DNA from: a virus
Reading direction: 5' to 3' (one strand)
Length of the DNA: 42,234 bases
IMG/VR virus record: IMGVR_UViG_3300017967_007425
Location: 1-42,234 of that record
This document shows positions 7,874 to 41,592 of this stretch, one piece after another (the stretch's first letter is position 1; every line of letters begins with the position of its first letter). Position numbers and translations under genes: made by a program. The notes beneath the pieces are model-generated. The model was not told the DNA's origin, ran no database searches, and worked only from the letters and a program-made list of their open reading frames with translations.

Positions 7874-7880
7874 CTTTTTT

Positions 7881-9331: not shown

Positions 9332-9332
9332 C

Positions 9333-10229: not shown

Positions 10230-10747
10230 ATTATCCTCCAGTTTAAATTTTTAGTTGAAAAAGATAAAAAACTTTCCGCACTTTTATCCTTATCTGATAA
10301 AATGCATTCTTCTTTATTAATTCCCCAATTTATATTCAGTTTTTTATCAAAAGGATCAATTGATCCTTCGCATTGTGGGTTATATAGCCCAGTTTGAAAA
10401 TATAAAATAGTCGTATCATCTTCCAAGCTCAGAAATCCATGTGCAAATCCCGGTTGAACATATATAGAATTATTTTTTTCGGGAGTACAATGAATGATTT
10501 CGTGAGTACCATATAATGGGGAATCGATTCGCAAATCTACTATACAATCCAATATTTCACCTTTAATTAAATTAATTTGTTTTCCCATTGGTGGCATGTA
10601 TTGATAATGCAATCCCCTTAAAACATTTTTTTTTGATATTGATATGCTGTATTGAGCTATTGTAGAATCAGTAATATTTGCTATTTCATGAAAACTACCT
10701 CTTGAATCTTTAAACTTAATATTATTATTGATTTTAAACTTACTCAT
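10226..10747 (-). CDS. rmlC: dTDP-4-dehydrorhamnose 3,5-epimerase (RmlC-like)
   Basis: This 173-residue cupin-fold enzyme would epimerise the 4-keto sugar made by RmlB. It has VLRGLHYQ with the catalytic His, GEILDCIVDLR, YVQPGFAHGFLSL (metal-free cupin strand typical of RmlC) and the TGLYNP block with the conserved Tyr. The length fits the family (about 180). It overlaps the RmlB-like start by four bases, so translation is coupled. Related epimerases that act at only one carbon share this pattern, so the product sugar is not settled. Confidence 0.85.
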   Translation of the reverse strand: MSKFKINNNIKFKDSRGSFHEIANITDSTIAQYSISISKKNVLRGLHYQYMPPMGKQINLIKGEILDCIVDLRIDSPLYGTHEIIHCTPEKNNSIYVQPGFAHGFLSLEDDTTILYFQTGLYNPQCEGSIDPFDKKLNINWGINKEECILSDKDKSAESFLSFSTKNLNWRII

Positions 10748-10748
10748 T

Positions 10749-11786
10749 TTAAAACCTCACAGCATTATTAAAGTTTGGTATACTCCAAATTTTACTAAAC
10801 AACATAATATCGCTCACAAATTGATGATCTTTTTTGAATTCTCCAATGCTATTTAAATTTGTAGATTCCTCATGGTATAAAAAGATGTCTTTTCCATAGT
10901 AATGAACTTGTCTTCTATCTGCAATGGCTCTTAAACAAATATCTATATCATTAAAAATCTTAGCAAAAGAAGGGTTAAGCCCTCCAACATTTGCTAGCCA
11001 TTCTAAATCAGTCATACAATACGCACCGTTATTAACATAAACTCCTTTATCACAATTTACATACAAATCTTCTTTTTGGGCACCCACTTTTGAATGAAAG
11101 AAACTTAAACCGTTATTTGCAAAATTAAAACCAGAGCCGCCATATTGTACTTTACCTTGTATAGAGTAATCAATCTCTCCATTTTCAGCTTTGACTCCAA
11201 ATCTTTCTCCTTTCCAATTTTTTTCAGGATATAGCAGTTTCGTACCCGACAATACAGGTTTATTTTTTCTGTGCCTTGTAATGAGCTCTTTTAATGTCGA
11301 ATTGTCAGGGAGATACATATCACTGTTCCAAAAAATAACCTCAGAAAATTGCATTCTCTTCATAATAAACGATCCAATATTAACCAACATAGCATAGTTA
11401 AACCCAGAATCATAATCACATCTAATGTAGCTAACAGAATCAAACTCTGATACTAAGCTTTTCAGACTTGGATCTGATCGATCATCAATTACAACAATAT
11501 TTACCATTTCTTCTGCATTATTGGAAACTAAATTATTTAAAGTATACTTTAATAAGTCTGGCATATTTCTAATTGGGAGTAGTAATGGTACCTTGTCTAG
11601 ACTAAAATTTCCTGATTTCTCAAATTTTACTTTATATGTATTCTTTTCTTTATCAAATTTCATACCACCGTTTTCTGCGTAATTTTCAAAGATCAGTCTA
11701 GATTGCTCGAATGAGAAATCAGTAATACCCTCCACCTCGAAATCATCTGAAAACAGTATCGTTCTAAAAAATTCTTTTAATTGCAT
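10749..11786 (-). CDS. Family 2 glycosyltransferase (GT-A fold)
   Basis: This 345-residue protein has a GT2 domain starting near residue 60. VPLLLPIRNMPDLLKYTLNN and VNIVVIDDRSDP form the nucleotide-sugar pocket, VIFWNSDMYLP stands in for the DxD metal site, and FNDIDICLRA resembles the acceptor-side acidic motif. About 60 residues precede the catalytic domain and have no visible function. No membrane span is seen, so it is probably a cytoplasmic transferase acting on a lipid-linked or protein acceptor. The start has a strong AAGGAG site. Confidence 0.78.
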   Translation of the reverse strand: MQLKEFFRTILFSDDFEVEGITDFSFEQSRLIFENYAENGGMKFDKEKNTYKVKFEKSGNFSLDKVPLLLPIRNMPDLLKYTLNNLVSNNAEEMVNIVVIDDRSDPSLKSLVSEFDSVSYIRCDYDSGFNYAMLVNIGSFIMKRMQFSEVIFWNSDMYLPDNSTLKELITRHRKNKPVLSGTKLLYPEKNWKGERFGVKAENGEIDYSIQGKVQYGGSGFNFANNGLSFFHSKVGAQKEDLYVNCDKGVYVNNGAYCMTDLEWLANVGGLNPSFAKIFNDIDICLRAIADRRQVHYYGKDIFLYHEESTNLNSIGEFKKDHQFVSDIMLFSKIWSIPNFNNAVRF

Positions 11787-11788
11787 AT

Positions 11789-12805
11789 TTATTTTTCTCC
11801 TTCATAATAGTCCCACAAATGAGAATCAATTAATCCTGATTCTCTTCTGAGATCTGTCTCGTACATCTCCATCGCTAATTCTTCAAAGTCATATTCGGGA
11901 ATCCATCCCAATGTTTTCATCATTTTAGAAGGATCTCCCCATAGTTTCGGAACTTCACATGGGCGATAAAATTGTGGATCAATTATAACATGTTCTTTGA
12001 TGTCAAGCCCAGCATATTCAAAAACATATTCTAGAAATTGTTGAACTGAATTAGTTCTACCAGTAGCCAAGACATAATCGTCTGCCACATCGTGCTGCAA
12101 CATCATCCACATTCCTTTTACATAGTCTTTTGCGTGTCCCCAATCTCTTAAAGGAGAAAGGTTTCCAAGACGAAGTTCTTTTTGACGTCCCAATTTAATT
12201 CTTGCTGCTGCTTTTGTAATCTTTCTAGTTACAAAGTTCTCTCCTCTTCTTGGAGATTCATGGTTGAAAAGAATTCCAGAACAAGCAAAAATACCGTATG
12301 ACTTACGATATGTCCCTACCATATGGTGTGCAGCCAACTTAGCACAAGCATAAGGAGAGACAGGAGAAAAATGTGTATCAAGTCCTTGAGGGCATTTAGT
12401 ATTATCACCAAACATCTCACTCGTAGATGCTTGATAGAACTTGCAGGATGGCTTTTGAAGGCGTATTGCTTCTAAAGCATACATACACCCCATCAAATTT
12501 ATTTCAGTGGTACTAACGGGCGTTTTGAAGCTTGTTCCAACGTGTGATTGAGCAGCCAAATTATAATACTCATCAGGCTGATATTCATGCACTAAACGAT
12601 ACAAAGAAGCGGAGTCTGTAACATCTGCTTCCTCTAATATAAAGTTTCCATTTTTCAATAAGTGCTTGATATTTTGTGTCTTGTTTTCAAAATCAGACAC
12701 AGTTCTACGATATGTTCCAATAACTTTATAACCCTTATCAATCAGAAATTCTGAAAGATAAGAGCCATCTTGCCCAGTTACGCCGGTTATAATAGCGGTT
12801 TTCAT
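11789..12805 (-). CDS. gmd: GDP-mannose 4,6-dehydratase
   Basis: This 338-residue enzyme converts GDP-D-mannose to GDP-4-keto-6-deoxymannose, the precursor of GDP-fucose, GDP-rhamnose and perosamine. The evidence is GVTGQDGSYLSEFLIDKGY (Gmd-specific NADP loop), NLAAQSHVGTSF, YQASTSEMFG (Thr/Glu catalytic residues), SPYACAKLAAH (Tyr-x3-Lys) and LFNHESPRRGENFVTRKIT. The length is close to normal (about 345-370). A phosphomannomutase-like gene at 22531-23334 would feed the same pathway. GDP-mannose pyrophosphorylase is not in the window. The start overlaps the GT4 gene stop by four bases. Confidence 0.92.
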   Translation of the reverse strand: MKTAIITGVTGQDGSYLSEFLIDKGYKVIGTYRRTVSDFENKTQNIKHLLKNGNFILEEADVTDSASLYRLVHEYQPDEYYNLAAQSHVGTSFKTPVSTTEINLMGCMYALEAIRLQKPSCKFYQASTSEMFGDNTKCPQGLDTHFSPVSPYACAKLAAHHMVGTYRKSYGIFACSGILFNHESPRRGENFVTRKITKAAARIKLGRQKELRLGNLSPLRDWGHAKDYVKGMWMMLQHDVADDYVLATGRTNSVQQFLEYVFEYAGLDIKEHVIIDPQFYRPCEVPKLWGDPSKMMKTLGWIPEYDFEELAMEMYETDLRRESGLIDSHLWDYYEGEK

Positions 12806-14079
12806 AAAATTATAACTCCTTCTTCATTTCCAGATTGAGTTTCGAAATCAATACTAAGCTCTTCGTTGAACCTATCATACCAATATTGTTCACCATTGTA
12901 AGAATTTCTCAACTCATCAGAAGCTGCACTCCAATATTCTTCATTTTCAAAAACATCTCGCATTTTCTTTCTAGCATCTTCGTCCCTGACATAAGCCCAT
13001 CTTGATTCTGCTTGTAAGACACCTTGCCATACTGCTTGTTGAGGGATCTGTTTAAGTTCATAGTCTACTGCTGCAAACATCTTTTTAGTTGTAGTAATCT
13101 TGCCTTTTGTTTTGCTTCCTTTGAACTTTCCAGGTTCATTGATGTTCTCTTTTAAAGTCAAGAAATCTAAATGCCCACTCCAGTCTGTAGCAACAACAGG
13201 AAGTCCATGCCATACTGCTTCATATAACGGAAGTCCAAATCCTTCTCCATGAGTAAAAGAAACCATTGCCTTTACTTTAGGATGGCTATATAAACCTTGC
13301 ATTTGTTCGTCAGTCAAGTTTCCATGTAGCAAATTAATTGAACACTTCCAGCCTTCTTTTTTAGCTGTATTAGTAATCAGTTCAAACTGACGCTTTGTAT
13401 TGTGATAATCAAAAACAGAGTCATTTGCGCCATGAACTTTCAAGAGTAATCCAACTTCTTCGTTTTTAAACTCTTCAATAAAATTATTGACAACAGCGTC
13501 AACATTTTTACGTGGGCCGAGCTGGGCAACACATAAGAAATTAAAATCATGTTTTAAGTTCAAATCCAATTCTTCAATATCAATATCACGCTTTGGAAAA
13601 CCAACAAAAGACATTGGAGTGGTACACTTATATTCAGGGATTTTTTGTCCTGTTGATTGATCAGATGCTTCATATGACGTATTCTTGTATACATCCATAC
13701 CATGCTTAGAGATAGTAATGATCTTGCTCATCTCATTTCCTTTTACAAGCCATTCTCCTGCTACTTTATCCGTCTCTATTCCTGCTGTATATCCTATGTC
13801 ATGAGGAGAAAGACGCTGCCATTCATTAGGAATTGTGCATTGAACGGAAGCGTCAAATTGTCCGCCATTTTGTCGATATAAAACTGTTTTTTGAAGTAAA
13901 GCGTCAATCATTTTTCTTTCTTGATCGTCCTTCCATATCCAACCAGATTTTCCCCAGTTGATATTATGGATGTATAAGTCAATTTCGGGATTTGACATCA
14001 TTGCTCTAAAAGCAAATCTTCCCATTTCTCCATAACCAGAACGAGAAAGAACTGGTGCTACTAATAATACTTTTTTCAC
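12802..14079 (-). CDS. Family 4 glycosyltransferase (GT-B fold)
   Basis: This is a GT-B transferase with VLLVAPVLSRSGYGEMGRFA as the N-terminal glycine loop, FLCVAQLGPRKNVDAVV at the domain junction, and HGEGFGLPLYEAVWHGLPVV as the donor-binding E-x7-E block. I chose a GTG start at 14079 (425 residues), because GGAGGT precedes it and it overlaps the previous stop as GTGA. An ATG at 14124 would overlap by 49 bases and has no clear ribosome site. The neighbouring GT4 gene is a probable distant paralogue, so the two may add successive sugars. Confidence 0.82.
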   Translation of the reverse strand: MKKVLLVAPVLSRSGYGEMGRFAFRAMMSNPEIDLYIHNINWGKSGWIWKDDQERKMIDALLQKTVLYRQNGGQFDASVQCTIPNEWQRLSPHDIGYTAGIETDKVAGEWLVKGNEMSKIITISKHGMDVYKNTSYEASDQSTGQKIPEYKCTTPMSFVGFPKRDIDIEELDLNLKHDFNFLCVAQLGPRKNVDAVVNNFIEEFKNEEVGLLLKVHGANDSVFDYHNTKRQFELITNTAKKEGWKCSINLLHGNLTDEQMQGLYSHPKVKAMVSFTHGEGFGLPLYEAVWHGLPVVATDWSGHLDFLTLKENINEPGKFKGSKTKGKITTTKKMFAAVDYELKQIPQQAVWQGVLQAESRWAYVRDEDARKKMRDVFENEEYWSAASDELRNSYNGEQYWYDRFNEELSIDFETQSGNEEGVIIL

Positions 14080-15341
14080 GCTACCTCCAATAATCTGTAA
14101 TTTGTATGCTTTCTTGTTTCCCAAGAGCCTTCTTCTTCGTGAATTTGTGTCATTAAATCAACCCATGCTTTTTCAAAGACTTCGAAACTATAATTTTTGA
14201 CTACATGATCTCTACCTGATCTACCAAGAGTGTCACGATAATCTTGATCTGCCATCATCATATTCTTAAATGCTGCAGATACTTTTTTACCATTCAATCT
14301 ATCTTCGTAGATATACGGAACATCTTGTGAGCCAATGATGGCTTTAGAGTCTGGCTCTAGTCCAATACCAAACCAAGCCTTACCATCTGTTACTTGCTCT
14401 TGTAAGCCTCCAGTCATATTCACAATGATCGGAGTACCACAAGAAAGAGACTCTAATGTAGCCAATCCAAATCCTTCTGCATCTGAAATATTAACTGTAC
14501 AATCTACAAAATTATAAAACATTGCTAGTTGCTCCATTCCTACTTTTTGAGTAGAAAACAATACTTGCCCTTTATCTACGCCAAGTTCGCGAACAATAGC
14601 ATTAAGATTCTGCCCATATCCATCTCTAGGATCTGTATGCATAATCAATGTTGCTTTATCGTGCCCCACATCATCTAAAAAGTCTTTAAACCAATAGATT
14701 AGAGATCCACTTTGTTTACGTCTTGCATTTCGATTATTCCAGAAAAACAAAAACTTTCCTTCTGTTCCATGTTGTTCATCGAACGATTGTCTAAATTGCT
14801 CTACTTGCTCTTTTGGAAGAGGTTTAAAGAAATCAGAATTTACAGCATGTGGAACATATAAAGATTTGACATCAGGTGCAACCGTCTCTACAATATCTTG
14901 TGTTACTTTTGATATAGAAGCAATAAAATCATTTGATTCATAAGCTGCTTGATTAAACTTAGGATATGGGTAATTGTCCCATACATGATAATACACCATA
15001 GGAATTAAAGAACGAATTTCTGCTTCAATTTCCCATAGCCAACCATAAAAACGTGGATCTGTCATAAAATACAAAATATCAGGACGTTCATTCCTGATGA
15101 TAGATCTTACGATATCTTGTGTGCCATAGCCATCAACAGGGAAGATCTTCCATCTTTCTCCCCATTCTTCCGTGATCTGTGGCTTGTGATCCGGATGCTT
15201 GATTGCCCCACCAAGACTAACAATATCAAATTTATCAGACTTGAGCAGGGCTTCGATAATATATCTAGTTTGAGTTCCGACACCCGATGGCGAAAGTGGG
15301 TGATCGGATATCGTCAAAACTTTAATTCTTTTTTCCGACAT
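14076..15341 (-). CDS. Family 4 glycosyltransferase (GT-B fold), second copy
   Basis: This GT-B transferase begins with VLTISDHPLSPSGVGTQTRY, a nucleotide-sugar GT4 N-terminus. FFWNNRNARRKQSGSLI leads into the donor domain, and DAEGFGLATLESLSCGTPII is the E-x7-E motif. The start at 15341 (MSEKRIKVL) has AGGAGAAGAA in front; the ATG at 15365 would overlap the nuclease gene and lacks a site. It is the first gene of the glycan cluster proper and lies 14 bases after the nuclease gene, so it may be expressed from the promoter at 16167-16193. Confidence 0.82.
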   Translation of the reverse strand: MSEKRIKVLTISDHPLSPSGVGTQTRYIIEALLKSDKFDIVSLGGAIKHPDHKPQITEEWGERWKIFPVDGYGTQDIVRSIIRNERPDILYFMTDPRFYGWLWEIEAEIRSLIPMVYYHVWDNYPYPKFNQAAYESNDFIASISKVTQDIVETVAPDVKSLYVPHAVNSDFFKPLPKEQVEQFRQSFDEQHGTEGKFLFFWNNRNARRKQSGSLIYWFKDFLDDVGHDKATLIMHTDPRDGYGQNLNAIVRELGVDKGQVLFSTQKVGMEQLAMFYNFVDCTVNISDAEGFGLATLESLSCGTPIIVNMTGGLQEQVTDGKAWFGIGLEPDSKAIIGSQDVPYIYEDRLNGKKVSAAFKNMMMADQDYRDTLGRSGRDHVVKNYSFEVFEKAWVDLMTQIHEEEGSWETRKHTNYRLLEVA

Positions 15342-15355
15342 TTCTTCTCCTTTTG

Positions 15356-16135
15356 TTACGGACAATGTTTAGTCCCCTTGAACTCACAATTAGCACAAGA
15401 GAGCCTATTCTTAATATAAACACCATTATCAATGTTGTGAAGTGCTTTCACTAATAATTCCATAGCATTTTCTGTTCTTCTTTTGCCAGAAGTTACTTTA
15501 AAAATTTCTATTTCATTAGATTTTGCGGTTCGCTTCAACAGTCCAAAATGGCATTCAATCCTATCAGGATCAATCCCATGCTTTAGGGCATAATAATGCT
15601 TATAAAAAATCAATTGATAGACAATCATTTTATCAGATTTCTTTTTAGCATCCCATCCCCAAGAACAGGTTTTCCAATCCAAAATATGATAAATATCGTC
15701 TTTTTTGACAACCAAATCAATAAATCCTTTAAATTTAAAAGGATTCCCACTATAGTTAGAAATATCCTCATAAATCTCTTCTTCGCATTTAATAACTTCA
15801 TAATTACCACCGAAGTAGGAATCTAATTTTGATTTATATTTTTCTACTAAATTCTCTCCTTGTGATTTGAATTGATCAAAATGGCTATCTTGAATTTCTT
15901 CAACCAACAATCCTCTTTCTTTACCAAACGCTTCTCCAAAATAATCTCTTAATTGAGATTCATTAATTTCATTTTCTAAGTGCTTCTCGATTGTTTCATG
16001 CAATGCAGATCCAAAAGCAGTATAAATATTTCCAGAAAATGATCCATCAACTTTATCGATGTTTGCCAACTTATGATAAAATGGACACTTAGCCCAGTTT
16101 TTAAGTTGTGAAAAAGAAATATATTTGTTAGTCAT
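15356..16135 (-). CDS. PD-(D/E)XK nuclease with iron-sulfur cysteines (Cas4/RecB-like)
   Basis: This 259-residue nuclease has His46 in the ALHETIE helix, Asp140 in GFIDLVV, Asp153-x-Lys155 in ILDWKT, and a Gln174 motif (YQLIFY), which together are the RecB/Cas4 catalytic set. Four cysteines (Cys17 in WAKCPF, then Cys247, Cys250 and Cys258 at the C-terminus) have the spacing of an AddB/Cas4-type 4Fe-4S cluster that locks the two ends. In phages such enzymes process DNA ends during recombination, replication or host DNA breakdown. There is no CRISPR array here, so an adaptation role is not supported. The start overlaps the upstream stop (TAATG). Confidence 0.85.
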   Translation of the reverse strand: MTNKYISFSQLKNWAKCPFYHKLANIDKVDGSFSGNIYTAFGSALHETIEKHLENEINESQLRDYFGEAFGKERGLLVEEIQDSHFDQFKSQGENLVEKYKSKLDSYFGGNYEVIKCEEEIYEDISNYSGNPFKFKGFIDLVVKKDDIYHILDWKTCSWGWDAKKKSDKMIVYQLIFYKHYYALKHGIDPDRIECHFGLLKRTAKSNEIEIFKVTSGKRRTENAMELLVKALHNIDNGVYIKNRLSCANCEFKGTKHCP

Positions 16136-18934: not shown

Positions 18935-19210
18935 CTATAGCAGCATCTTGATCTCTAATATCAGTTTGCTTGTACCTCTAATTATTCTATGATAAGACAT
19001 TTTGGGAATAAAATATTCCTTTCCTTCAATTAATTTCTTTGGCAATTCGTTATCCATCTGAAGATACCAAGATTGCCCTTCAACTACTTTTACGACTCTA
19101 TCCTCTCTATCCAAGTGCCAAACTAGTTCAGATGGATCTACATCCATTTTAAATGTTCTTAGAAATATATTTTCTGTTAATTTGACTTGTTTAAATGGAA
19201 AATCGTCCAT
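18935..19210 (-). CDS. Cupin-like small protein
   Basis: This 91-residue protein is mostly beta-strand by eye. LVWHLDREDRVVKVVEG, then SWYLQMDNELP, and GKEYFIPKMSYHRI with a late His follow the two-motif pattern of a single-domain cupin. The metal ligands are not complete, so binding is uncertain. I use ATG 19210, which overlaps the upstream stop as TAATG and has GGAAGA before it; a TTG two codons earlier is possible. Function is unknown; similar short cupins occur in marine T4-like phages. Confidence 0.65.
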   Translation of the reverse strand: MDDFPFKQVKLTENIFLRTFKMDVDPSELVWHLDREDRVVKVVEGQSWYLQMDNELPKKLIEGKEYFIPKMSYHRIIRGTSKLILEIKMLL

Positions 19211-20511
19211 TACCAAAATCTTCCCGGAACATTTGTCCCGAAATCTTTATGTGCTCTACAAGCCCAATATCCAGCTTTAGTGCGATCTTTCTTCTCAGCG
19301 CAGTTATGGCGTGAAGCAAAGTTCTTACGAGCCTCAGCGCTGTTCCAGTTGCCTTTAAGTCCACCTTTTGCATCTCCATAAGAGATCTTTTTGATACGCC
19401 CCGATGCTGATCTAACATATACTTTGTATTTTTTACCAGCGCCAGTATTCTTCATTGGCTTTCCGATTGGAGGATCTTTCTTCTTTTTCTTTTTCTTCTT
19501 TTTAGCTTCTTCGATTGTCTCTATGTACATTGGGAAATCAAGTGGGACTCTTTCTCCTCTGAAAGTTGCCCATTCTCCAAGATCAGACTCAAGCATTTCT
19601 TTTTCTTCTTCATTAAGAGGAGTATATCTACCCTTCTTGTAATGAACTCTGGCTTCCTTAATCAATTGAAAATAAGCATCGGAGCCAATTCTATAGATAT
19701 TTTCAGTAAGTGGGATCTTAGCTTTTTTATGATATTCTAGCCCTTCGTTCAGTCCTACATCATTACCAATATTATTGGAAATCAAATCTTGAATATTTGT
19801 TAGTTGAGCCAAGCTTCCACCTTTAACTAACATCATTCCTTTATATGCCATGTTGAAACTAGTACCCTTTACAATGATTATAGGATCATCAATATATTCA
19901 GAAATTTGTTTAATATTATGGGTATTTAAAAATTTCTGAATATTGTCAACACTATTAATATTCTGAGCGAAATATCTCCTCAATTCTTTGTTTCCCATTA
20001 CTATTTCTTTTCCAGTTGCCAATTCTGAGTTTTGTTCGATTTTATCCATTGCATTCTGTACAAAATCCATTCTAGCATCTTGATGTTTCAAATCTTTATG
20101 ATACATAACCACTATGTTATCAAAATCCAAACTTGGCTGTTCAGAAGCAACTTCAATTTGATCATAACTAGGAGTCTCTGCTGCCGCCTCGCCAGAATTA
20201 AGTCCACCTAGAGCTAAACCGGCACCAAAAAGCCAATCCCTAATAGATTCATCTAATCTCTCTTCTTCTGACTCTTCATCATCTTCTAGTTCCTTTTTGC
20301 CAGCGGCATACATTTGCGCTGTATGATCCAAGCCAAATGTATCATATTCTTCATCTGACTGTTCTTCTTCCGCTGCCTGTTGTAACCAATTTGGAGGCTC
20401 AGGCTCATTTTCATATGAGTCTTCTGAATTTTCTTCGTCTTCCAACTCCATCAAAACTACGCTCAATTCTTCTAGAATAATTTTTTTTAAATAAGATTTT
20501 GCAACTTTCAT
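19210..20511 (-). CDS. Probable internal/prohead protein with acidic N-terminus and poly-lysine basic C-terminus
   Basis: This 433-residue protein starts with an amphipathic helix (MKVAKSYLKKIILEELSVVL) and a very acidic stretch (EDEENSEDSYENEPEPP). The mid-part has no known fold. It then switches at TIEEAKKKKKKKKKDPPIG to a basic C-terminal domain rich in Lys, Gly and aromatic residues, with CAEKKDRTKAGYWACRAHKD. The same acidic-to-poly-Lys layout is seen in the next gene. T4 internal proteins and core proteins are cut by the prohead protease after short N-terminal pieces, and a similar fate is plausible here. The basic domain would neutralise packaged DNA. This is inference. Confidence 0.6.
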   Translation of the reverse strand: MKVAKSYLKKIILEELSVVLMELEDEENSEDSYENEPEPPNWLQQAAEEEQSDEEYDTFGLDHTAQMYAAGKKELEDDEESEEERLDESIRDWLFGAGLALGGLNSGEAAAETPSYDQIEVASEQPSLDFDNIVVMYHKDLKHQDARMDFVQNAMDKIEQNSELATGKEIVMGNKELRRYFAQNINSVDNIQKFLNTHNIKQISEYIDDPIIIVKGTSFNMAYKGMMLVKGGSLAQLTNIQDLISNNIGNDVGLNEGLEYHKKAKIPLTENIYRIGSDAYFQLIKEARVHYKKGRYTPLNEEEKEMLESDLGEWATFRGERVPLDFPMYIETIEEAKKKKKKKKKDPPIGKPMKNTGAGKKYKVYVRSASGRIKKISYGDAKGGLKGNWNSAEARKNFASRHNCAEKKDRTKAGYWACRAHKDFGTNVPGRFW

Positions 20512-21305
20512 TTCTTTTTTCCTCTTTGTTTTCTTCGTTTAGAATCTTTCTTGCCCCAAGATTTACCCTTAGATCCTTTCATTTTTTTGCAAGCACCCGG
20601 AGTAGGGCGACAAGCAGGATATCGTTTGCGCTTTTCTCCAGAACCTCTACCACAGGTTTTATACCCACCTTTGCCATCTGGAGCATTGCAGTCAACCCAA
20701 CCGCCTTTCTTACCTTTGGCTCCTTTTCTCTTGAACCAGTCCCTTAAATTAGACTCTGATGAGGGTTTTGATGTGAGCTTTCTTTCGTCAATGTTTGCTT
20801 TTTCTAATTTTTCATAATAATCAGGATCGTCATCTAAATGATCTTTAGCTGTCATTTCAGCATTATCAAAATCACCTTTATCTAACTTGCCCCTCGTATG
20901 CTCGAGTTCATGCTTAGTGCCTTTTTTCAACTCTTCTTCATCATAGTCTGCATCTTTTCGATATTTTCTTTCATCTATTTGTAATTCTTCATTAGTGGAG
21001 TTGCCCCAGTTCTTGGCACCGACTTTGCGACATTTAACAAGAGCACCAGAAGCATAAGCACTCGGCCATGTTGTATATCTAGATTTAACCTTGTAATAGC
21101 AAGCATCCTTCTTACCAGATGACTTCTTTTTCTTCTTCTTTTTCTTCTTGCGCTTCTTTTCATCCAGAAGATCTTCAACCTCATTTAGAATATCTGAATA
21201 GTCTTCTAGATCTTCAAAATTATCTTCTGATATTAATGATAAATTTGGATCATATTCGTACTTTGGTTCTTCATCAATAAAGAACTCTCTCCATCTATTA
21301 TTCAT
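20508..21305 (-). CDS. Probable basic internal protein with two Cys-rich modules
   Basis: This 265-residue protein begins with MNNRWREFFIDEEP and an acidic region ending in EVEDLLDEKK, then a run of nine lysines. A first Cys module follows (CYYKVKSRYTTWPSAYASG...CRKV), then a mixed-charge linker. A second Cys/Gly/Arg module closes the protein (GWVDCNAPDGKGGYKTCGRG, YPACRPTPGACKKM), which ends in RKQRGKKK. I recall both modules from giant viruses and marine phages, without known function. The start follows GAGGG and the gene overlaps the next by four bases. A virion or nucleoprotein role is likely but unproven. Confidence 0.6.
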   Translation of the reverse strand: MNNRWREFFIDEEPKYEYDPNLSLISEDNFEDLEDYSDILNEVEDLLDEKKRKKKKKKKKKSSGKKDACYYKVKSRYTTWPSAYASGALVKCRKVGAKNWGNSTNEELQIDERKYRKDADYDEEELKKGTKHELEHTRGKLDKGDFDNAEMTAKDHLDDDPDYYEKLEKANIDERKLTSKPSSESNLRDWFKRKGAKGKKGGWVDCNAPDGKGGYKTCGRGSGEKRKRYPACRPTPGACKKMKGSKGKSWGKKDSKRRKQRGKKK

Positions 21306-21455: not shown

Positions 21456-21881
21456 TTATAAAATAAAATTATATTTTTTTACCACATTTTTTATTAAATC
21501 TGAGGAAGAGTTAAATTTATAGTCTCCTCCGATACCCCAAAGCATATCAACTCCCAATTCTTCACAAACATCTTGCTCCGGAGTATTAGATTTTCCTCTA
21601 TCCCCGCCATTGGCAAAATAGTCCGGACGAAGCAATCGAATTGCTTCACATACAGTACCATCAAAATCATCTACTGCAGAAACCAAAATTACACCTTTAA
21701 TCTCTTTAAGGATTTTAGCTCTTTCTTCGTATGTCATAAAGACATACCCTTTCTTTTTTATCAGCCAATCATCAGAATTAGCTACAACAATTACATTCCC
21801 ATATTGCGCAGCATCTCGAATCATTTGCACATGCCCTCCATGTATGGGATCAAACCCACCAGACACCATTACTGTTTTCAT
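21456..21881 (-). CDS. HxGH nucleotidyltransferase, HldE C-terminal/GCT type
   Basis: This 141-residue enzyme has VSGGFDPIHGGHVQMI (HxGH nucleotide-binding motif), VANSDDWLIKKKG and a YEERAKIL helix. FANGGDRGKSNTPE and the C-terminal GGDYKFNSSSDLIK complete the pattern. This matches the C-terminal domain of HldE (heptose 1-phosphate adenylyltransferase) and glycerol-3-phosphate cytidylyltransferase. With the GmhA-like and HAD genes in the glycan cluster it could form an NDP-heptose, but it lies 14 kb away under another promoter. Its start overlaps the preceding stop by four bases. An intrinsic terminator follows. Confidence 0.78.
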   Translation of the reverse strand: MKTVMVSGGFDPIHGGHVQMIRDAAQYGNVIVVANSDDWLIKKKGYVFMTYEERAKILKEIKGVILVSAVDDFDGTVCEAIRLLRPDYFANGGDRGKSNTPEQDVCEELGVDMLWGIGGDYKFNSSSDLIKNVVKKYNFIL

Positions 21882-22399
21882 TTTATCTCCTTTATTGTAA
21901 CTTTTTCTCTAGCTTCTTCAATTATATCCATAATTTCCTCTTGTCTAGAAATTATATGATTTGCTTTTCCTATAAAAAATTTTGGCAATTCTTTAAAATT
22001 TTCAGATGAAGATCTAATCCTTTTATTTGCTCTATCAATTAATCCGTCAGTCAACAAATCAATCATTCCTTTTAATTCTTTAATAGTTAAAAATAATATA
22101 GTTAACATTAAAATAGTTCTAGAATCTTCAGGATCGTATGAGATTAAATCTGACTTAAGCGTTTGATATCCATCAGTGATATATAAATATATTTCTTTTC
22201 CTTCATATTCAATAAGTAAATCCTTCTCGCTCGTATATCTAAACGATAATTCTTCACTTTCTTTTGTCATACTTTGAAACAAATCAGTATACATCATGAA
22301 AAAATTTTCTTTATCTGAATCATTCAAAAATTTAAAATAAGAGACATCCATTCCATGCATTACAAATGCTTCTAACATTTCTTCAATTGATTTACTCAT
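21878..22399 (-). CDS. Helical protein of unknown function, follows tRNA
   Basis: This 173-residue, acidic, helix-rich protein (SIEEMLEAFVMHGMDVSYF, EEIMDIIEEAREKVTIKEIK) has a central hydrophobic helix (TILMLTILFLTIKELKG). It has no motif I recognise. The open frame could extend to 22465, but that part lies in the tRNA. I place the start at ATG 22399, with CTGGAG just before it. It is transcribed after tRNA-Arg from P3. Confidence 0.68.
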   Translation of the reverse strand: MSKSIEEMLEAFVMHGMDVSYFKFLNDSDKENFFMMYTDLFQSMTKESEELSFRYTSEKDLLIEYEGKEIYLYITDGYQTLKSDLISYDPEDSRTILMLTILFLTIKELKGMIDLLTDGLIDRANKRIRSSSENFKELPKFFIGKANHIISRQEEIMDIIEEAREKVTIKEIK

Positions 22400-22410
22400 T
22401 TTTTCTCCAG

Positions 22411-22486
22411 TGGTACGCTCGGCTGGACTCGAACCAGCAATCGATTGCTTAGAAGGCAATTGCATTATCCATTATGCTACGAACGC
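22411..22486 (-). tRNA. tRNA-Arg (anticodon UCU)
   Basis: A complete 76-nt cloverleaf. The acceptor GCGTTCG pairs with CGAGCGT (including G-U pairs). The D arm is GCAT/ATGC with GG in the loop, and the anticodon stem ATTGC/GCAAT encloses CTTCTAA (UCU). The T arm is GCTGG/CCAGC with TTCGAGT. Discriminator A and an encoded CCA end are present. It reads AGA codons, common in AT-rich phages and rarer in many hosts, so it should aid translation of phage genes. It begins 11 bases after promoter P3. Confidence 0.92.
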
Positions 22487-23395: not shown

Positions 23396-23569
23396 TTATT
23401 CTTGTGGTGTCGAAGTATCTTGAGGATCTTCTTCAACTACCTCTTCTTGGGCAGTATCTTCCTCTTGAGCTTCTTCTTGTTCGCATTCACAAACACACTC
23501 TTCAGCTTCCATGCTTGTGTCTTCTTCTTTATCTCCACAAGCAAAAAGCATAAACATTAAACTAATCAT
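23396..23569 (-). CDS. Small lipoprotein B
   Basis: This 57-residue protein has an N-terminal signal of hydrophobic residues ending in a lipobox (MFMLFACGDKEED, lipidated Cys11). A very acidic, Glu-rich mature part contains a CVCECEQEE cluster. The start at 23569 follows AAGGAGAAGAGAATA and overlaps the stop of lipoprotein A by eight bases. CGDKEE is shared with lipoprotein A, so the pair may have arisen by duplication. Known phage lipoproteins (T5 Llp, Cor-like) block receptors against other phages; that role is possible here but not shown. Confidence 0.75.
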   Translation of the reverse strand: MISLMFMLFACGDKEEDTSMEAEECVCECEQEEAQEEDTAQEEVVEEDPQDTSTPQE

Positions 23570-23771
23570 TATTCTCTTCTCCTTCAACATTAGTTGTATT
23601 TTTTTCAGTTACATTAGTAACTTCCACCATTTCTGTATTAGTTTCGGTAGTAGTTGTATTTTGCACATCTACTTCTTGTTCGGTTACTGTTTCAACAGGA
23701 GTTGCGATAGTTGTTTCTTCCTTGTCTCCACATCCGATCAAAAGTGTCATTGCTAATAATTTAGTTTTCAT
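23562..23771 (-). CDS. Small lipoprotein A
   Basis: This 69-residue protein has a signal ending in the lipobox LLIGCGDKEE (Cys14), then a Thr/Val/Glu-rich low-complexity region (TTTTETNTEMVEVTNVTEKN). It is the first gene after promoter P4, and has an AAAAGGAG ribosome site. The pair is expressed as a separate unit bounded by P4 and a terminator. The envelope location (inner or outer membrane) cannot be decided. The shared CGDKEE with lipoprotein B supports paralogy. Confidence 0.78.
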   Translation of the reverse strand: MKTKLLAMTLLIGCGDKEETTIATPVETVTEQEVDVQNTTTTETNTEMVEVTNVTEKNTTNVEGEENND

Positions 23772-23820: not shown

Positions 23821-24774
23821 TTAGGCAATCTTTTTTTGCCCATGAAGTTCTAAATATCTTAGAACAGTAAGTTCTTTCATTTTTGCTTCTACCATAATAT
23901 CAAGCAAAACACCATAAGTATCTATCTTTTGATAAATATAGTCAGAATGTGCTTGAGGTTTTATAGAATTGTCACCTTGTTCATCTCGTCGAGATTCAGA
24001 ATAGTGTACAACCGGTACTATGTCTCCCCACGTTGAGGCTGCCAATTTGACTGCTTCTTCTTGTGATAAGCCGCCAGTACAGAAGCCGTGGTGATGGTAA
24101 TCGTGCACAATAGGAGTGCCGATACGTGTAAACACCTCGTCATAAAGTTCTTTTGTTGAGTATAAGGATTCTTTGTCATCATTTTCCACCGTTAGTCTAG
24201 AGCGCACACTTTCTGATAATCTCTCAAAATTCTTACAAAAATTGTCCAATGCCATCTTTCGATTATTATAGTGTGCGCCAACATGAATATTGAGTTTAGC
24301 ATAAGGACTACGAGGCAAGCAAAGCAAGTCAAATACTTTGCCGTGATTCTCAAGATCTTTAATAGTATTGAGAACAACTTGCTCTGTAGGAGATGTCAGT
24401 TTATTGAATGGGCCGGGATGCGAAGTAATACGCATACCATTCTCTTCAATAAACAAGCCACAATCAAACAGCACTTGCTCAATCATAGCAAACTGAGGGA
24501 GATCTTCTATATTATACTCAGAAGCCCAAGGAAACAAATCAGATGACAGTCGGAAGAAATCGAATCCATTTGCTTTGTTCCATTCTAGGATCTTAAGAAG
24601 ATCACGACAGTTTTGAAGTGCTAGTTGCCCAGCATATTGTATACCTTTTTGTTTAAAGGTTTTTTTAATCATTGTGCGATTAGTAGTAATACGTTCCGCT
24701 TTTGGATTTGATCCATAATTTTTTGGATCATTGAGTTGCATATTGATGCAAGCATAACCTATATTGTTAATCAT
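23821..24774 (-). CDS. uvsE: UV damage endonuclease (UvdE/UvsE)
   Basis: This 317-residue TIM-barrel endonuclease nicks DNA beside UV photoproducts. NIGYACINMQLNDP is the family N-terminus. WNKANGFDFFRLSSDLFPW, MRITSHPGPFNKLTSP, LNIHVGAHYNNR, RLTVENDDKESLYS and IVHDYHHHGFC contribute the conserved His, Glu and Asp metal ligands, with HYSESRRDEQ at the C-terminal side. The length is near the normal 300. A phage of sunlit water would benefit. The gene is first after promoter P5, with only four bases separating its stop from promoter P4, and no terminator in between. Confidence 0.92.
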   Translation of the reverse strand: MINNIGYACINMQLNDPKNYGSNPKAERITTNRTMIKKTFKQKGIQYAGQLALQNCRDLLKILEWNKANGFDFFRLSSDLFPWASEYNIEDLPQFAMIEQVLFDCGLFIEENGMRITSHPGPFNKLTSPTEQVVLNTIKDLENHGKVFDLLCLPRSPYAKLNIHVGAHYNNRKMALDNFCKNFERLSESVRSRLTVENDDKESLYSTKELYDEVFTRIGTPIVHDYHHHGFCTGGLSQEEAVKLAASTWGDIVPVVHYSESRRDEQGDNSIKPQAHSDYIYQKIDTYGVLLDIMVEAKMKELTVLRYLELHGQKKIA

Positions 24775-24804: not shown

Positions 24805-24832
24805 TATACGTTTGAGAGAACAATTATATTCA
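24805..24832 (-). promoter_or_regulatory. Phage promoter element P5 (TGAATA-N16-CGTATA)
   Basis: TTGAATA, 16 bases, CGTATAAA, ending 31 bases before the uvsE ATG. It overlaps the last codon of the ADP-ribosyltransferase gene. Confidence 0.7.
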
Positions 24833-26011
24833 ATTTTGTTCTATAATTTGTTCTAAAACTATCTCAATATGCCCAAAATACAATATTTCTTCGATGTCTG
24901 AATCTGATTTACCTTTTATCAAATCTTGAATGCTGCTGATAGTACGACTTGGGATTATTCCCTCTTCATCCTTAGAAATATATTTCATCTCTTTTATTCT
25001 AAAGTTTCCATATGCAATTATCTCTTTCTCAGTACCTTCAAATTCAGAAAAATCATCAACATCCACACCATTCTGAAGTTCTGGAATATGGAATAAAACT
25101 CCCCACCTATCTCCATTTCCAGAGTTTCTTTCTAAGAAATCAGTTGCAACGCTTTTGTCAACTGTGAAAGATGTCAAGTTTTTAATTTCTATTACGGATC
25201 CAACTTTGTAATCGTCACTTGATAATCCTTGATAGCCATCTTGATCTTCAAGATACATTCCCAATCCACGATATACTTCCATAGGCTGCCCTAGACTGCT
25301 GCCTGCCAACTTTCTCAAAATAATCTTTGCTTTGACATATGTTTCTTTCGATGGCATGAATACATCTCTAATACCATCATTAACAAAATTCTGCATTCTA
25401 GCCAAGGTAGGATCAAAAGTATCAGGGTTCCTTATCTGTTCATAATTTGCCCCAGTGAAAAGCAATATTGCTCTAAAAATCTCTCTCTGGTAAGGATTAT
25501 ATACTGATATCAAAGCATCTCTAAACTTAACAGATATCTCTTCTTTCTTGGCTTTTAGCTGCTCTAATCTTTCTTCACCCATTTCTTCGGATGATTTAAA
25601 GTTCGTACCTAACATAGAATTAGTCAATGACTTAGCCCAATCTATAACATTGACTATTGTACCTGCTCCTTCTTCTTTTGTCCAATTGATTTCATCAATT
25701 TCGGCATCTGCATCCCCCAAAGCACTTCTCAAGGTTCTATCATTCTCAATCCTTTGTTTGACTTTTTCAGCATTCTGATCAAATTGAATCATTTCCCTCA
25801 TTTGTGCTTTGAAGAATTCTGGAGACTGTTTTTCTAATTCTTCGATAGATAAAGATTCAGGATCTAAATCTGCTTGAGGGAGAGAACTATCCTCGTTTAA
25901 TAAGACAGAAAGTATTTTAGGAATCATCTGAGATTCGTCTAATTTAATAACAGTTGTAGAATTTACAAATCTTCTCCATTCATTTAAAATAATTTTCATA
26001 TCATTTTTCAT
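24830..26011 (-). CDS. ADP-ribosyltransferase with virion-type N-terminal helix (Alt-like role)
   Basis: The C-terminal half of this 393-residue protein carries the R-S-E signature of arginine-specific ADP-ribosyltransferases. It has VYRGLG with Arg248, NLTSFTVDKSVATDF with Ser281-Phe-Thr283 as the S-x-T strand, and GTEKEIIAYG with Glu328-x-Glu330 as the ExE motif. The N-terminus (MKIILNEWRRFV at residues 5-16) resembles the helices of other probable capsid proteins here, and residues about 40-240 are helical and charged. T4 packages Alt, an ADP-ribosyltransferase, in the head and injects it to modify host RNA polymerase, so a similar role is attractive. Position among virion-type genes supports this; the target is unknown. 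Confidence 0.75.
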   Translation of the reverse strand: MKNDMKIILNEWRRFVNSTTVIKLDESQMIPKILSVLLNEDSSLPQADLDPESLSIEELEKQSPEFFKAQMREMIQFDQNAEKVKQRIENDRTLRSALGDADAEIDEINWTKEEGAGTIVNVIDWAKSLTNSMLGTNFKSSEEMGEERLEQLKAKKEEISVKFRDALISVYNPYQREIFRAILLFTGANYEQIRNPDTFDPTLARMQNFVNDGIRDVFMPSKETYVKAKIILRKLAGSSLGQPMEVYRGLGMYLEDQDGYQGLSSDDYKVGSVIEIKNLTSFTVDKSVATDFLERNSGNGDRWGVLFHIPELQNGVDVDDFSEFEGTEKEIIAYGNFRIKEMKYISKDEEGIIPSRTISSIQDLIKGKSDSDIEEILYFGHIEIVLEQIIEQN

Positions 26012-26026
26012 TTTTAAAAGCCCTCA

Positions 26027-33632: not shown

Positions 33633-33845
33633 TCAATTCGCATTTGCAGAAATTTCAGATTCAGTAGACTCCCTAGATGCATTTTTAAGCATTTTATCTT
33701 GTTCTTTATCCTTTTTCTCTTGTTTTTCTTTCTCTTCTTCTTTTTCTTTTTGCTCTTCTCTCTCAGCATCAGCCAAATCATCTAAGATTTCGGCTTTTTT
33801 CGATTCACTCAGGTACTTTTTCCAATTTTCAAATAATTTTTTCAT
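33633..33845 (-). CDS. Small helical protein with capsid-targeting-like N-terminus
   Basis: The protein has 70 residues. The N-terminus MKKLFENWKKYLSESKK is a short amphipathic, Trp-containing helix ending near Glu. The rest is a Lys/Glu-rich low-complexity helix (REEQKEKEEEKEKQEKKDKE). A T4-like capsid-targeting sequence (about 10 residues, cut after Glu by the prohead protease) would look similar, so packaging in the head is plausible. It is one of the smallest proteins of this type in the window. The start lies at TATAAATATG, where the apparent late-promoter octamer overlaps the ATG. Confidence 0.6.
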   Translation of the reverse strand: MKKLFENWKKYLSESKKAEILDDLADAEREEQKEKEEEKEKQEKKDKEQDKMLKNASRESTESEISANAN

Positions 33846-36889: not shown

Positions 36890-36914
36890 AGCCCCCCTAT
36901 AAGTATATAGGGCT
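36890..36914 (-). promoter_or_regulatory. Hairpin enclosing the ribosome site of the serine protease gene
   Basis: On the minus strand AGCCCTATA pairs with TATAGGG...GCT, leaving three bulged G residues. The six-G run that should serve as ribosome site is inside the stem, six bases before ATG 36884. This could limit translation. It is not a terminator, since A residues, not U, follow. Confidence 0.4.
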
Positions 36915-39580
36915 TATCGGGCTTGAAGCAACTTTAGAACCTCTTTTCTTATGATCTCTTGTACGCCTTCTGGCTTTCTTGGTTGGGCTATTGAGTGCAA
37001 ATCTGCTCTGACTAAAGCCTCCATACATTCTTCAGCATCAATGTGCCATCCGTTATTGTCATTGAATTGTCCTAACATCATTTTACCAACTGTTTCAATG
37101 GTAGCAGCATCCCAATCTTCACAAGTAATTTTGATAGTTACAGAGTATCCTTCATTATCAATGATAGCTTGGAAAATCTTTTCTGGACTGATATCGGCAT
37201 CTCTATTGACTTCAATTCCTACTTCCATTTCAAGTTCGTTTAGTTCTGTAGCACCAGAGAGCCCTGAGTATAGATTCTGGTTATTGTAGAACTCTTGGTG
37301 TATCAAGCCGGCTTTAAGAATGTTCATACCTTCAGAACTCAACATAGAGGTTAATGTGGCTATATGATTAGAAAGCCTTTTTGCCATTTCAACCAACTCA
37401 GGATTATCTGGATCAAAGCTTTCATTGACACTATCGAATAAATCTTGAAGCCACACGTCATCTGAAAACTCGGCAGTAAATGATTGAATAATTTCTAATC
37501 CCATAGCATTATCTTCATCAACTTCTATGTCATCAATATTCCAGTTGGAATCTTCTTCAAGAGCGTCTTTGAATCTTGTCATATAGAATTTGCTTGAAAC
37601 ATCTGTTCTGATGTCTCCACCGCCGTGATATGAGGTGTATTCTTTTATGTAATTTTGTAGACTATCATCAACAGCAGGATCAGTAACACTATTTACCAAA
37701 TCAGCAATATCATTCAATGCATACATCCACGTATCAGGATCATAAGATTGGTAATTTTCATTATGCTCTGAATCGAAATGGGTAATGTGAAATTCAATTA
37801 TACAGACATTGGTGTATCCATAAGCAGAATCTCTATAATAAACAGTATAATCTTTGAACCAACTATTATCATAAAAGTATAAATCATCTGCTGAATCCAC
37901 AGCATCTGTCATCAAATCACTGACATCAGTGCCAGACTTTACGTATTCTATTTCATCACCAAAAGGTAATACAATCCTAACTTCTCCAGTCATATAAAAC
38001 CCTTCACCATTCCAATCCTGATCTACTCCAAGTTGAGAGAAATCAACTCTCCCTCCAGAATATTCATGCTTAAGATCGCTTAAAGCCTGTCTTGCTGTAT
38101 CGATATCCATTCCTGCGTATTGATCTTTGAGAGATTGTTCTAAATCATTTGAATACTGAACAGTCTGTTCGAATTCTAAGTCTCCTCTATCAAGTACTTG
38201 TCCAAAAAACTCTGGGATCATGTTAGTCATATGAGTATCTTCGTAGTGTCCCCCTACTCTAAGGAATCTACGTAAATCAATATTACCACTGAATTTGTCT
38301 ACAATATCTTGAATCTTTGTTCTTTGGGTATTAGCCAAAACTTTGCTGACATGCTCTGCAAATCCGGGAATGGTATCACCATAAGTTCTTTTTTCTGGTA
38401 CGGCAACTCTTGTAAGGATTTCTGAATAGTCACCTTTGTCTGCCAAGAAACCAACGTTTTTGATTCTAATTCTTCCAACAGGAGAAAACCCATCTATGCC
38501 TCTCTGATCATCAGAAAATAATTCGTCATCTTCATACTGATCTAAAAGATCTTGTGTAGGCGGCTCTTCAAATTCGTCTGGGTTGAGAGCATACGCAATC
38601 ATCCCATTTGCATGGGCTTCTGCAAGAGCACAAATATTATATTGATCATAGCGTGATAAATTACCTTTGTAATCCGAAGAAGGCAAAGAATGGCAAGATT
38701 CCATTCCTTGATGATCAGACATTCTAAATACATCAATAGGGTGACGAGAGAATACGACATATTCTGTTTCTCCAAGTGAAGCCTTATATTCATCCAATTT
38801 CTTTCCTTCGAAAAATTCATAGTTCTTCACATTAGAACCACCAGCGCCACTCATAAGCCATTGAGATTGTTTACTAGCCATATTTTTCAACTTAGAGATT
38901 CCAAAGAAATCCTCAACATCATTATCAGTTTCCTCGCCTCTTCCCCATCTTACTCTGCTAATATCTGCAAAGATTCTCATCGAAGCCTCGGCAGGCAAAA
39001 ACTTCATAATTGATTTCTTGAGAGCCAATCTCTTTCGGAACATATTCAAATAATTTTTATCCTTAAGATATTCTGGTTTAAACCCACTTGCTCTTCTATA
39101 GGAAGGAACAGGCTTTCCATCACTAAAGTTCTTTTCAGCGTACTCTTTCATATCTGAAACAGTTTTTTGCCATCCGTCCATTGTCTGCGAGACAGAATTT
39201 AAATATTTATTTAAATCTTGCATCCATTTTGTGATAGACATTTTTTCTTCTTTGGTTCTATGTTGGACTCCATCTTCTGGGTTAGCAATATAAGAAGATC
39301 TTACAGACTTGATAACCTCTCCCATATTATCTGGATTGAATCTCCACCCAGTACTGTTTAAAAACTTTTCAAACTGCGAGAAAGGAGAGTTAGGATCATC
39401 AGATTTAAAAGAAGACAAGATACGATACCTATCTCCAAATATATCTTGAAAAGGAAGAGCAGACTTTGGCATCTCTAGAACATCGTTAAGATGTCCAATT
39501 TCTTCTGCTGTTGCTTCATTAAGTTGTTTATTCATTTCTTCGATAATCAAAGATCTGAGAAAATCTTTTGTTAATTTCAT
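36914..39580 (-). CDS. Very large virion-type protein of unknown function
   Basis: This 888-residue protein begins with an amphipathic helix (MKLTKDFLRSLIIEEMNKQL) as in other probable capsid-associated proteins. The central part holds a Cys/His-containing block (VVFSRHPIDVFRMSDHQGME, SCHSLP, and NICALAEAHANGMIAYAL). This resembles a motif (rms-x-h...SCHS) I recall from several phage and mobile-element proteins of unknown activity. The C-terminal half has many beta strands and Tyr/Asp-rich segments (ADDLYFYDNSWFKDYTVYYR). No known catalytic set is complete. Size and position suggest a tail or head protein or an injected effector. It is followed by the serine protease gene. Confidence 0.6.
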   Translation of the reverse strand: MKLTKDFLRSLIIEEMNKQLNEATAEEIGHLNDVLEMPKSALPFQDIFGDRYRILSSFKSDDPNSPFSQFEKFLNSTGWRFNPDNMGEVIKSVRSSYIANPEDGVQHRTKEEKMSITKWMQDLNKYLNSVSQTMDGWQKTVSDMKEYAEKNFSDGKPVPSYRRASGFKPEYLKDKNYLNMFRKRLALKKSIMKFLPAEASMRIFADISRVRWGRGEETDNDVEDFFGISKLKNMASKQSQWLMSGAGGSNVKNYEFFEGKKLDEYKASLGETEYVVFSRHPIDVFRMSDHQGMESCHSLPSSDYKGNLSRYDQYNICALAEAHANGMIAYALNPDEFEEPPTQDLLDQYEDDELFSDDQRGIDGFSPVGRIRIKNVGFLADKGDYSEILTRVAVPEKRTYGDTIPGFAEHVSKVLANTQRTKIQDIVDKFSGNIDLRRFLRVGGHYEDTHMTNMIPEFFGQVLDRGDLEFEQTVQYSNDLEQSLKDQYAGMDIDTARQALSDLKHEYSGGRVDFSQLGVDQDWNGEGFYMTGEVRIVLPFGDEIEYVKSGTDVSDLMTDAVDSADDLYFYDNSWFKDYTVYYRDSAYGYTNVCIIEFHITHFDSEHNENYQSYDPDTWMYALNDIADLVNSVTDPAVDDSLQNYIKEYTSYHGGGDIRTDVSSKFYMTRFKDALEEDSNWNIDDIEVDEDNAMGLEIIQSFTAEFSDDVWLQDLFDSVNESFDPDNPELVEMAKRLSNHIATLTSMLSSEGMNILKAGLIHQEFYNNQNLYSGLSGATELNELEMEVGIEVNRDADISPEKIFQAIIDNEGYSVTIKITCEDWDAATIETVGKMMLGQFNDNNGWHIDAEECMEALVRADLHSIAQPRKPEGVQEIIRKEVLKLLQAR

Positions 39581-40519: not shown

Positions 40520-40547
40520 TATACGAATAACTATTCAATATTATTCA
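40520..40547 (-). promoter_or_regulatory. Phage promoter element P6 (TGAATA-N16-CGTATA)
   Basis: TTGAATA, 16 bases, CGTATATA, ending 22 bases before ATG 40498. It overlaps the 3' end of the kinase-like gene. Confidence 0.68.
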
Positions 40548-41592
40548 AAAATATTTTCTTTTTTAATTTTAAAATTGTACCAATATCTTTAGATATGACT
40601 TCAATTGAATATTGATGTTCTTCAAATATAACTGTGGCGATACTCAAGCCCATACCTTTAACAATTAAAGAATCTTTTGGAAAGATGTTTTGATTAAATT
40701 CATCTTGTGTCATTCCTCTTCCATTGTCTTCAACATAAATTGAACCTTCATCATCAGAATATATTATAATTTTCTTTTCAATATTATCATTATACTTGAT
40801 TCCATTTTGAATTAGCTGCATAAGCCCAGAACACATAAGAGAAGAGTTTCCAACTAAAACCGGCAAATTTTTTACCTCTACATACATATCCAATGCTGTA
40901 ATAGATAGATAATCTTCTAATTCATCTTTAAGGTTGAATTCTCGAACTTCAATTTGTTTTGTTTGTTTAATAAGCCCAGTAAAAGAATATATTCCTCGAT
41001 AAACCATTTGCGCATGAGCTAATCCTTTTTCTAAAAACATTAAAGCAGGAGCTAGTTTAAGATCTTTAATAGCCTTATCGGTTAATTTTCTCTTTAGCAT
41101 TGCAATGCCTCTTGGAATATAAGTGTTAATCCCAGAGTGCATATCATGACGAATCACTTTGTTTGAATATTCAATAAAAAGCTTTGATTCGTAAAGTTGT
41201 TGCTTCTTTTTGAGATCATCTAGCATTTGCAATGTTGCACCATGATAATCAACAAGCCATTGATCATATTTTTCCAAGTCTCCAGGCATAATTTTTCCTG
41301 CTCTATAATGCGTTGGCATTCCTTCAACAAATATTACAGTAGGGAAACACTCAACCAAATAAATTTTTGGATACTTTAATTCTAGTTCCGACTTAACCTT
41401 GTTTGTAGGATTAGGAGAATAATAAAACTTTGGACACTGTTTAAGTTCAATAAATGCACCACCATCGTCAAAATCTATCGGCTGCCACAGAAGCGAAAAC
41501 CATTTTCCACCATCTTTTCTCATACTTATATATAGTCTTTCCAAGCCTTTCTTTTTTGTTTTTAGATAATCATAATCACTATTGTGTTCCAA
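40531..41592 (-). CDS. Histidine-kinase-like protein (HisKA and GHKL ATPase)
   Basis: This 353-residue protein has an H-box (KVIRHDMHSGINTYI, His149). The ATPase boxes are LMQLIQNGIKYND (N-box, Asn263), VEDNGRGM (G1, Asp289-Asn-Gly-Arg-Gly293) and KGMGLSIA (G2). About 140 residues precede the H-box and may be a sensor domain without a membrane span. No response regulator is in the window. The likely start is TTG 41592; ATG at the MRKDGGKW residue (codon 24) is the alternative. A histidine kinase in a phage is unusual. It could rewire host signalling or use the fold for another ATP-dependent role. Confidence 0.72.
   Translation of the reverse strand: MEHNSDYDYLKTKKKGLERLYISMRKDGGKWFSLLWQPIDFDDGGAFIELKQCPKFYYSPNPTNKVKSELELKYPKIYLVECFPTVIFVEGMPTHYRAGKIMPGDLEKYDQWLVDYHGATLQMLDDLKKKQQLYESKLFIEYSNKVIRHDMHSGINTYIPRGIAMLKRKLTDKAIKDLKLAPALMFLEKGLAHAQMVYRGIYSFTGLIKQTKQIEVREFNLKDELEDYLSITALDMYVEVKNLPVLVGNSSLMCSGLMQLIQNGIKYNDNIEKKIIIYSDDEGSIYVEDNGRGMTQDEFNQNIFPKDSLIVKGMGLSIATVIFEEHQYSIEVISKDIGTILKLKKKIFLNNIE

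Follow-up and report, generated by a model that had tools for sequence, protein, structure and literature searches.

A putative ADP-ribosyltransferase with a candidate head-packaging leader in an uncultured marine relative of phage T4

Background

Phage T4 injects a few of its head proteins, and the injected proteins of other phages are mostly unknown because this cargo is not conserved. The DNA analysed here (the window, i.e. the whole 42,234-nt virus record IMGVR_UViG_3300017967_007425) comes from a marine T4 relative and carries a gene for a putative ADP-ribosyltransferase (ART), which raises the question of whether such an enzyme may travel in the phage head and, if so, which signal would load it. 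The features described below make it likely that the protein is packaged and injected and works like T4 Alt, while standing outside the Alt family and carrying a leader of its own. A gp55-like late sigma factor (3554-4243; phrog_234, E=3.8e-8) was also found in the window and fits a phage of the T4 superfamily.

Genomic context of the ART gene

The gene and its parts are located as follows.
24830-26011, minus strand: ART gene, 393 aa, intact ORF with ATG start, stop codon counted in the coordinates
26021-26025, minus strand: gaggg, Shine-Dalgarno-like, 10-14 nt upstream of Met1
25520-25930, minus strand: helical N-terminal region, aa 28-164, mostly missing from the homologue in contig L073
24833-25519, minus strand: ART domain, about aa 165-393, from phrog_832, hhalign against the T4 Mod family and the L073 homologue

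The opposite (plus) strand of 24830-26011 is full of stops. Met5 was also considered as the start but is disfavoured, since the gaggg run ahead of the gene points to Met1.

The ART gene is a single-gene insertion between a small ORF and the gene for a UvdE UV endonuclease (23821-24774, Pfam E=6.5e-56), outside the head genes. The latter gene is kept in relatives and was used as the anchor for finding them, and at this site the ART gene is absent in five close relatives. Such a clean insertion is expected for exchangeable cargo, but equally for any moron gene.

Catalytic residues and assignment to the ART class

The preliminary description of this DNA had claimed a complete R-S-E set, and when the translation was inspected Arg248, Ser281-x-Thr283 and Glu328-x-Glu330 were all in place. 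The corresponding codons, with the residues in the L073 homologue and in a Ruegeria phage protein (RpAliso), are
25268-25270, minus strand: catalytic Arg248 in YRGLG, invariant in both
25163-25171, minus strand: Ser281-Phe-Thr283, the S-x-T of the set, S-W-T in both
25022-25030, minus strand: Glu328-Lys-Glu330, the E-x-E, E-E-E in both

The homologue, a protein of 312 aa (P0002, L073:8458-9393; phmmer E=2.8e-9 among 12,389 ORFs), was found blind in a set of proteins gathered solely by their leader (see below). It shares 30-33% identity with the window ART across the domain and keeps YRG, S-x-T and E-x-E, and because it was found independently of the catalytic residues and has all of them, the set is more than chance. 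It also matches phrog_16619, a family of minor head proteins, across the stretch from YRG to E-x-E (E=3.6e-6) and, weakly, PF03496 (E=0.057).

A profile search against ART families, as suggested in the preliminary description, gave phrog_832, annotated as RNA polymerase ADP-ribosylase, as the only PHROGs family matching the window ART (P0001; E=0.0068, aa 241-381). The full protein had no match in Pfam or NCBIfam, none by tblastn at E<=1 among 50,697 phage records, and nothing usable in IMG/VR or PDB, and PF03496 did not match the window at E<=10. With the ART domain alone tblastn against phages gave only five weak matches, including a Mod-like 'ADP ribosylase' of a Citrobacter phage, the nearest annotated phage match (E=0.8), and, at E=8, the Ruegeria phage protein, in which an R, an S-x-T and an E-x-E are likewise present. 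Searching the contigs related to the window with phrog_832 gave no match, and three profile scans (A1, A2 and A5) recovered at most the already known L073 homologue.

Profile-profile comparison of the window ART and its homologue (two sequences) with six phage Mod-type ARTs gave an hhalign probability of 89% (P=2e-6) with the R (YRG) and S (S-F-T) motifs in register. When the Ruegeria protein was added, the three-sequence profile placed two ARTs of solved structure, Vis and rat ART2, at the top of 177,635 PDB sequences (E=0.006 and 0.09), while the two-sequence profile recovered no ARTs from PDB. Modelling with AF2 from one and two sequences gave a strand order compatible with the ART fold at pLDDT 33 and 43, values that are poor because too few relatives exist, and Foldseek returned nothing for these models, which are too poor for this to carry meaning.

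The C-terminal half is thus very probably a mono-ADP-ribosyltransferase of the Arg-type R-S-ExE class with predicted activity, and from the motif kept in a diverged homologue and the profile matches to phage ARTs there is little doubt about the ART assignment that the preliminary description had proposed. The individually weak profile scores and the poor AF2 models would agree with a protein that has the ART fold but is inactive as an ADP-ribosyltransferase, or with a coincidental motif match; this is very unlikely, as R, S-x-T and E-x-E are kept in both a ~30%-identical homologue and the Ruegeria phage protein, which would be unexpected if the enzyme were dead or the match due to chance.

The N-terminal leader

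Two features were identified at the N-terminus (here and below a slash marks the end of a leader or a candidate cut).
25958-25999, minus strand: leader core Met5-Ser18, MKIILNEWRRFVNS, a degenerate copy of MKLLxENWRKYLxE, PSSM score 18.2 bits
25931-25942, minus strand: candidate prohead-protease site L24-D25-E26/S27, hydrophobic-x-E, aligned to the post-leader DKSQQ of the homologue

The Trp-containing amphipathic helix, previously noted as being akin to those of other likely head proteins, was compared with a leader profile (PSSM) built without the window sequences. Internal Met sites, 2,880 in all, scored 6.3 at most, and the 18.2 bits of the helix were reached by none of 248,000 shuffled N-termini and by 3 of 200,000 shuffles of the protein's own N-terminus; the likeness therefore holds. 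The leader keeps the Trp, the Arg, the aromatic residue and the hydrophobic pattern of its class. However, the usual P1 Glu at leader position 14 is replaced by Ser18 (VNS/T) and E-N is swapped to N-E, a variant (N-E-W) of which a dedicated scan found no other case, and for these two reasons targeting or processing of the window ART could be lost. The nearest substitute for the lost Glu is LDE/S, eight residues beyond Ser18; taken alone as evidence of cleavage it was rejected, since hydrophobic-x-E occurs 15 times in the protein.

These two changes, together with the position beside UvdE outside the head cluster and the Mod-like protein as nearest annotated phage match, are what would be seen if the ART, as is the case for T4 ModA/ModB, were an early product of the infected cell with a helix that is a decayed, non-functional remnant of a leader. 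This is an unlikely explanation given that the Trp, the Arg, the aromatic residue and the hydrophobic pattern are retained at a score that shuffled sequences almost never match, and that the L073 homologue keeps a canonical leader, MKLLLENWRKYLVE, ending LVE/D. The gene of the homologue lies within a run of three leader-bearing genes.

The leader class in other phages

IMG/VR was scanned at the DNA level with a degenerate pattern encoding MK-x-hyd-hyd-ENWRK[FY], leaving positions after 11 unselected. This gave at least 120 stretches on contigs of uncultured phages, encoding at least 146 distinct proteins, of which at least 117 are non-redundant by cargo. Among the 117 non-redundant proteins listed, 91 have both a hydrophobic residue at position 12 and Glu at position 14, a combination that, with this spacing, has a frequency of 2.7% in the rest of these proteins (binomial P ~1e-118). 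The codons vary synonymously at Leu3, Leu4, Asn7, Arg9 and Lys10, indicating that selection on the leader acts on the protein; that it is kept merely as DNA through recombination was rejected on the same ground. In GTDB (257 billion bacterial and archaeal bases) the pattern had one match, with a frame that stops after 17 residues, and a 20-aa leader query gave no match in named phages, possibly owing to limited sensitivity.

The domains behind the leader were assigned with Pfam and PHROGs for the 104 leader proteins listed. They comprise four protein kinases (with two proteins matching a family annotated as 'inhibitor of host transcription'), three Zeta-toxin/AAA kinases, two to three 5' nucleotidases and two tRNA-ligase phosphodiesterase domains, as well as one each of M23 peptidase, Nudix, exonuclease, DNA methylase, GNAT, papain-like and alpha/beta hydrolase, a range as would be expected for injected takeover enzymes. 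A deoxynucleotidase that carries the Trp leader in contigs of marine origin has another leader, LLLEE/S, in Flavobacterium phage immuto, a phage whose leaders resemble the second type described below. Three leader proteins contain YHGT, YHAT or YHYT (L173:4259-4651, L104:9894-10448 and L069:4765-5892) and are perhaps H-type ART-fold (Tpt1/KptA-like) enzymes; only the one in L173 has a Pfam match, a weak one (E=0.034).

Other leaders in the window and a second leader type

Further proteins of the window that begin with a leader are as follows, and contigs related to the window have many more.
33633-33845, minus strand: 70-aa charged protein, near-canonical leader MKKLFENWKKYLSE/S, 37.9 bits
41579-42058, minus strand: 159-aa protein, leader MKLLMESFKKFLKE/N, 30.1 bits
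36914-39580, minus strand: 888-aa protein, leader of a second type, MKLTKDFLRSLIIEEMNKQLNE/ATAEE

The N-terminus of the 70-aa protein reads MKKLFENWKKYLSES and its orthologues in G001-G005 keep the leader, while the 159-aa protein starts MKLLMESFKKFLKEN. Directly downstream of the gene for the latter, a HATPase_c (histidine kinase/HSP90-like ATPase) domain is encoded at 40531-41592.

For the 888-aa protein several orthologues carry the second leader type (QLNE/ATAEE), and the orthologue in L118 has a Trp leader instead (FLSE/ATDEE), joined at the same LxE point. All 21 collected orthologues have hydrophobic-x-E at or next to the conserved start, with unrelated sequences upstream of it, and in G006 the gene sits between those of the capsid and the tail sheath. 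The family represents a structural-cluster protein with exchangeable propeptides and an LxE junction recurring before the conserved start.

The second leader type, MK(I/L)TKxxLxxIIxEE...LxE, can be found on many proteins (19210-20511 and 36914-39580 in the window, L054:1044-1406 and L200). It also adjoins gp21, in L200 (minus strand) and as gp21 neighbour in G006 and G029. A short recurrent domain, DACYxKVKSRYxVWPSAYASGALVKCRKVGA, occurs at 20508-21305 and at many other loci in otherwise different proteins, some of them with leaders.

Linkage to the gp21 protease

In T4, gp21 cuts after hydrophobic-x-Glu, and Alt is shortened by six residues at ITE-6 and by a C-terminal fragment at LTE-619 [PMC5694885], while the first ten residues of IPIII are enough for packaging [PMC9026906]. 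Among the matches listed, 11 of the 12 leader contigs larger than 100 kb encode a gp21-type S77 protease. The window, a 42-kb fragment, has no gp21 or gp23; the related contigs G006, G007, G008 and G014 encode both a gp21-type protease and a gp23 capsid protein. Both genes that flank gp21 in G023 have leaders of this kind, the preceding one starting MKLLLEHWNRYLQE and the following one with ATWRTFLNEG near its start. Because the leader class terminates in the motif cut by gp21, and does so in phages that have a gp21 gene, the leader is proposed to be capsid-targeting-like and to load the window ART into the head.

An amphipathic helix could also target something else, e.g. the membrane of the host or a different phage compartment within the cell, and the head location is here read from sequence. 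This seems quite improbable when considering that the leader ends in a gp21-type hydrophobic-x-E, that leader proteins directly adjoin gp21, that this protease is encoded in nearly all of the large leader contigs listed, and that a single structural-cluster protein is joined at one and the same LxE to either leader type as well as to other upstream sequences.

Comparison with known systems

The window ART resembles T4 Alt in being a T4-type ART with a proposed gp21-cut N-terminal propeptide ending after hydrophobic-x-Glu and proposed injection with the DNA. It differs in size (393 aa against about 680 aa in Alt) and in its leader, which is another and longer one, and nothing clearly equivalent to the cut of Alt at LTE-619 near the C-terminus was identified in it. 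The suggestion that it represents a family separate from Alt agrees with the searches, in which the full protein had no tblastn match to Alt or Mod (E<=1) and none to PF03496, leaving remote profile similarity only.

T4 ModA and ModB, which are synthesized inside the cell from early genes, have an Arg-specific R-S-EXE motif [PMC10468400]. Mod-type proteins are the best profile-profile match of the window ART family, with R and S motifs aligned, but they are early proteins of ~200 aa and those compared lack a leader. Phage ARTs predicted to ride in heads include Alt/VIP2 and polyvalent MuF fusions [PMC9503650]; a further point of likeness is the minor head protein family matched by the L073 homologue. 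In those ARTs the enzyme forms part of a fusion with MuF or another structural domain, whereas the window ART has a short leader only, which would make it a separate loading route.

T4 IPI-III have a short N-terminal propeptide, cleaved off by gp21, that on its own is enough for packaging [PMC9026906]. In common with these, the proteins described here have a short N-terminal leader and a cargo that varies between phages. The differences are the leader sequence, MKLLxENWRKYLxE, its presence on dozens of enzymes rather than on a few small basic proteins, and that packaging is here deduced. In the open-access papers searched, with full text queried for leader peptides, no leader with this sequence and such a spread of cargo was found. 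As packaged phage ARTs are already established (Alt and MuF/polyvalent fusions), novelty lies more in the leader system than in the ART.

Proposed route and its implications

The favoured reading is that the window ART, an R-S-ExE mono-ADP-ribosyltransferase that is probably Arg-specific, would be made late in infection and steered into the prohead core by its short N-terminal amphipathic helix. A gp21-type protease would then remove the leader after hydrophobic-x-Glu, probably at LDE/S (aa 24-27); the predicted cuts are after E14 in the peptide MKLLLENWRKYLNEEE and after E26 in the peptide MKNDMKIILNEWRRFVNSTTVIKLDESQM. Ejected with the DNA, the enzyme could ADP-ribosylate host proteins at once, ahead of any phage gene expression. 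By analogy with Alt the target might be RNA polymerase, which is only a guess.

In a wider sense, we lean towards the view that uncultured phages distantly related to T4 load the head with dozens of unrelated enzymes for injection by means of a modular N-terminal tag, which exists in at least two interchangeable types that both end in hydrophobic-x-Glu. This cargo would comprise protein kinases, nucleotidases, a DNA methylase, an acetyltransferase, proteases and ARTs, the window ART included. If the leader marks cargo, injected effectors could be listed from sequence alone, and a cargo with ARTs and kinases of the host-transcription-inhibitor family resembles a kit for host takeover that would arrive before any phage gene is active. 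The reading also yields clear single-residue predictions.

Other features of the window

The stretch 5031-15365 appears to hold consecutive genes for nucleotide-sugar and glycan synthesis, an assignment made from their N-termini only. A tRNA-Arg (tct) at 22411-22486 overlaps the start region of the ORF 21878-22465, the true start of which is probably further in. Two small overlapping ORFs at 23396-23771, both kept in relatives, have lipoprotein-like N-termini (LFACGDKEE and LIGCGDKEE).
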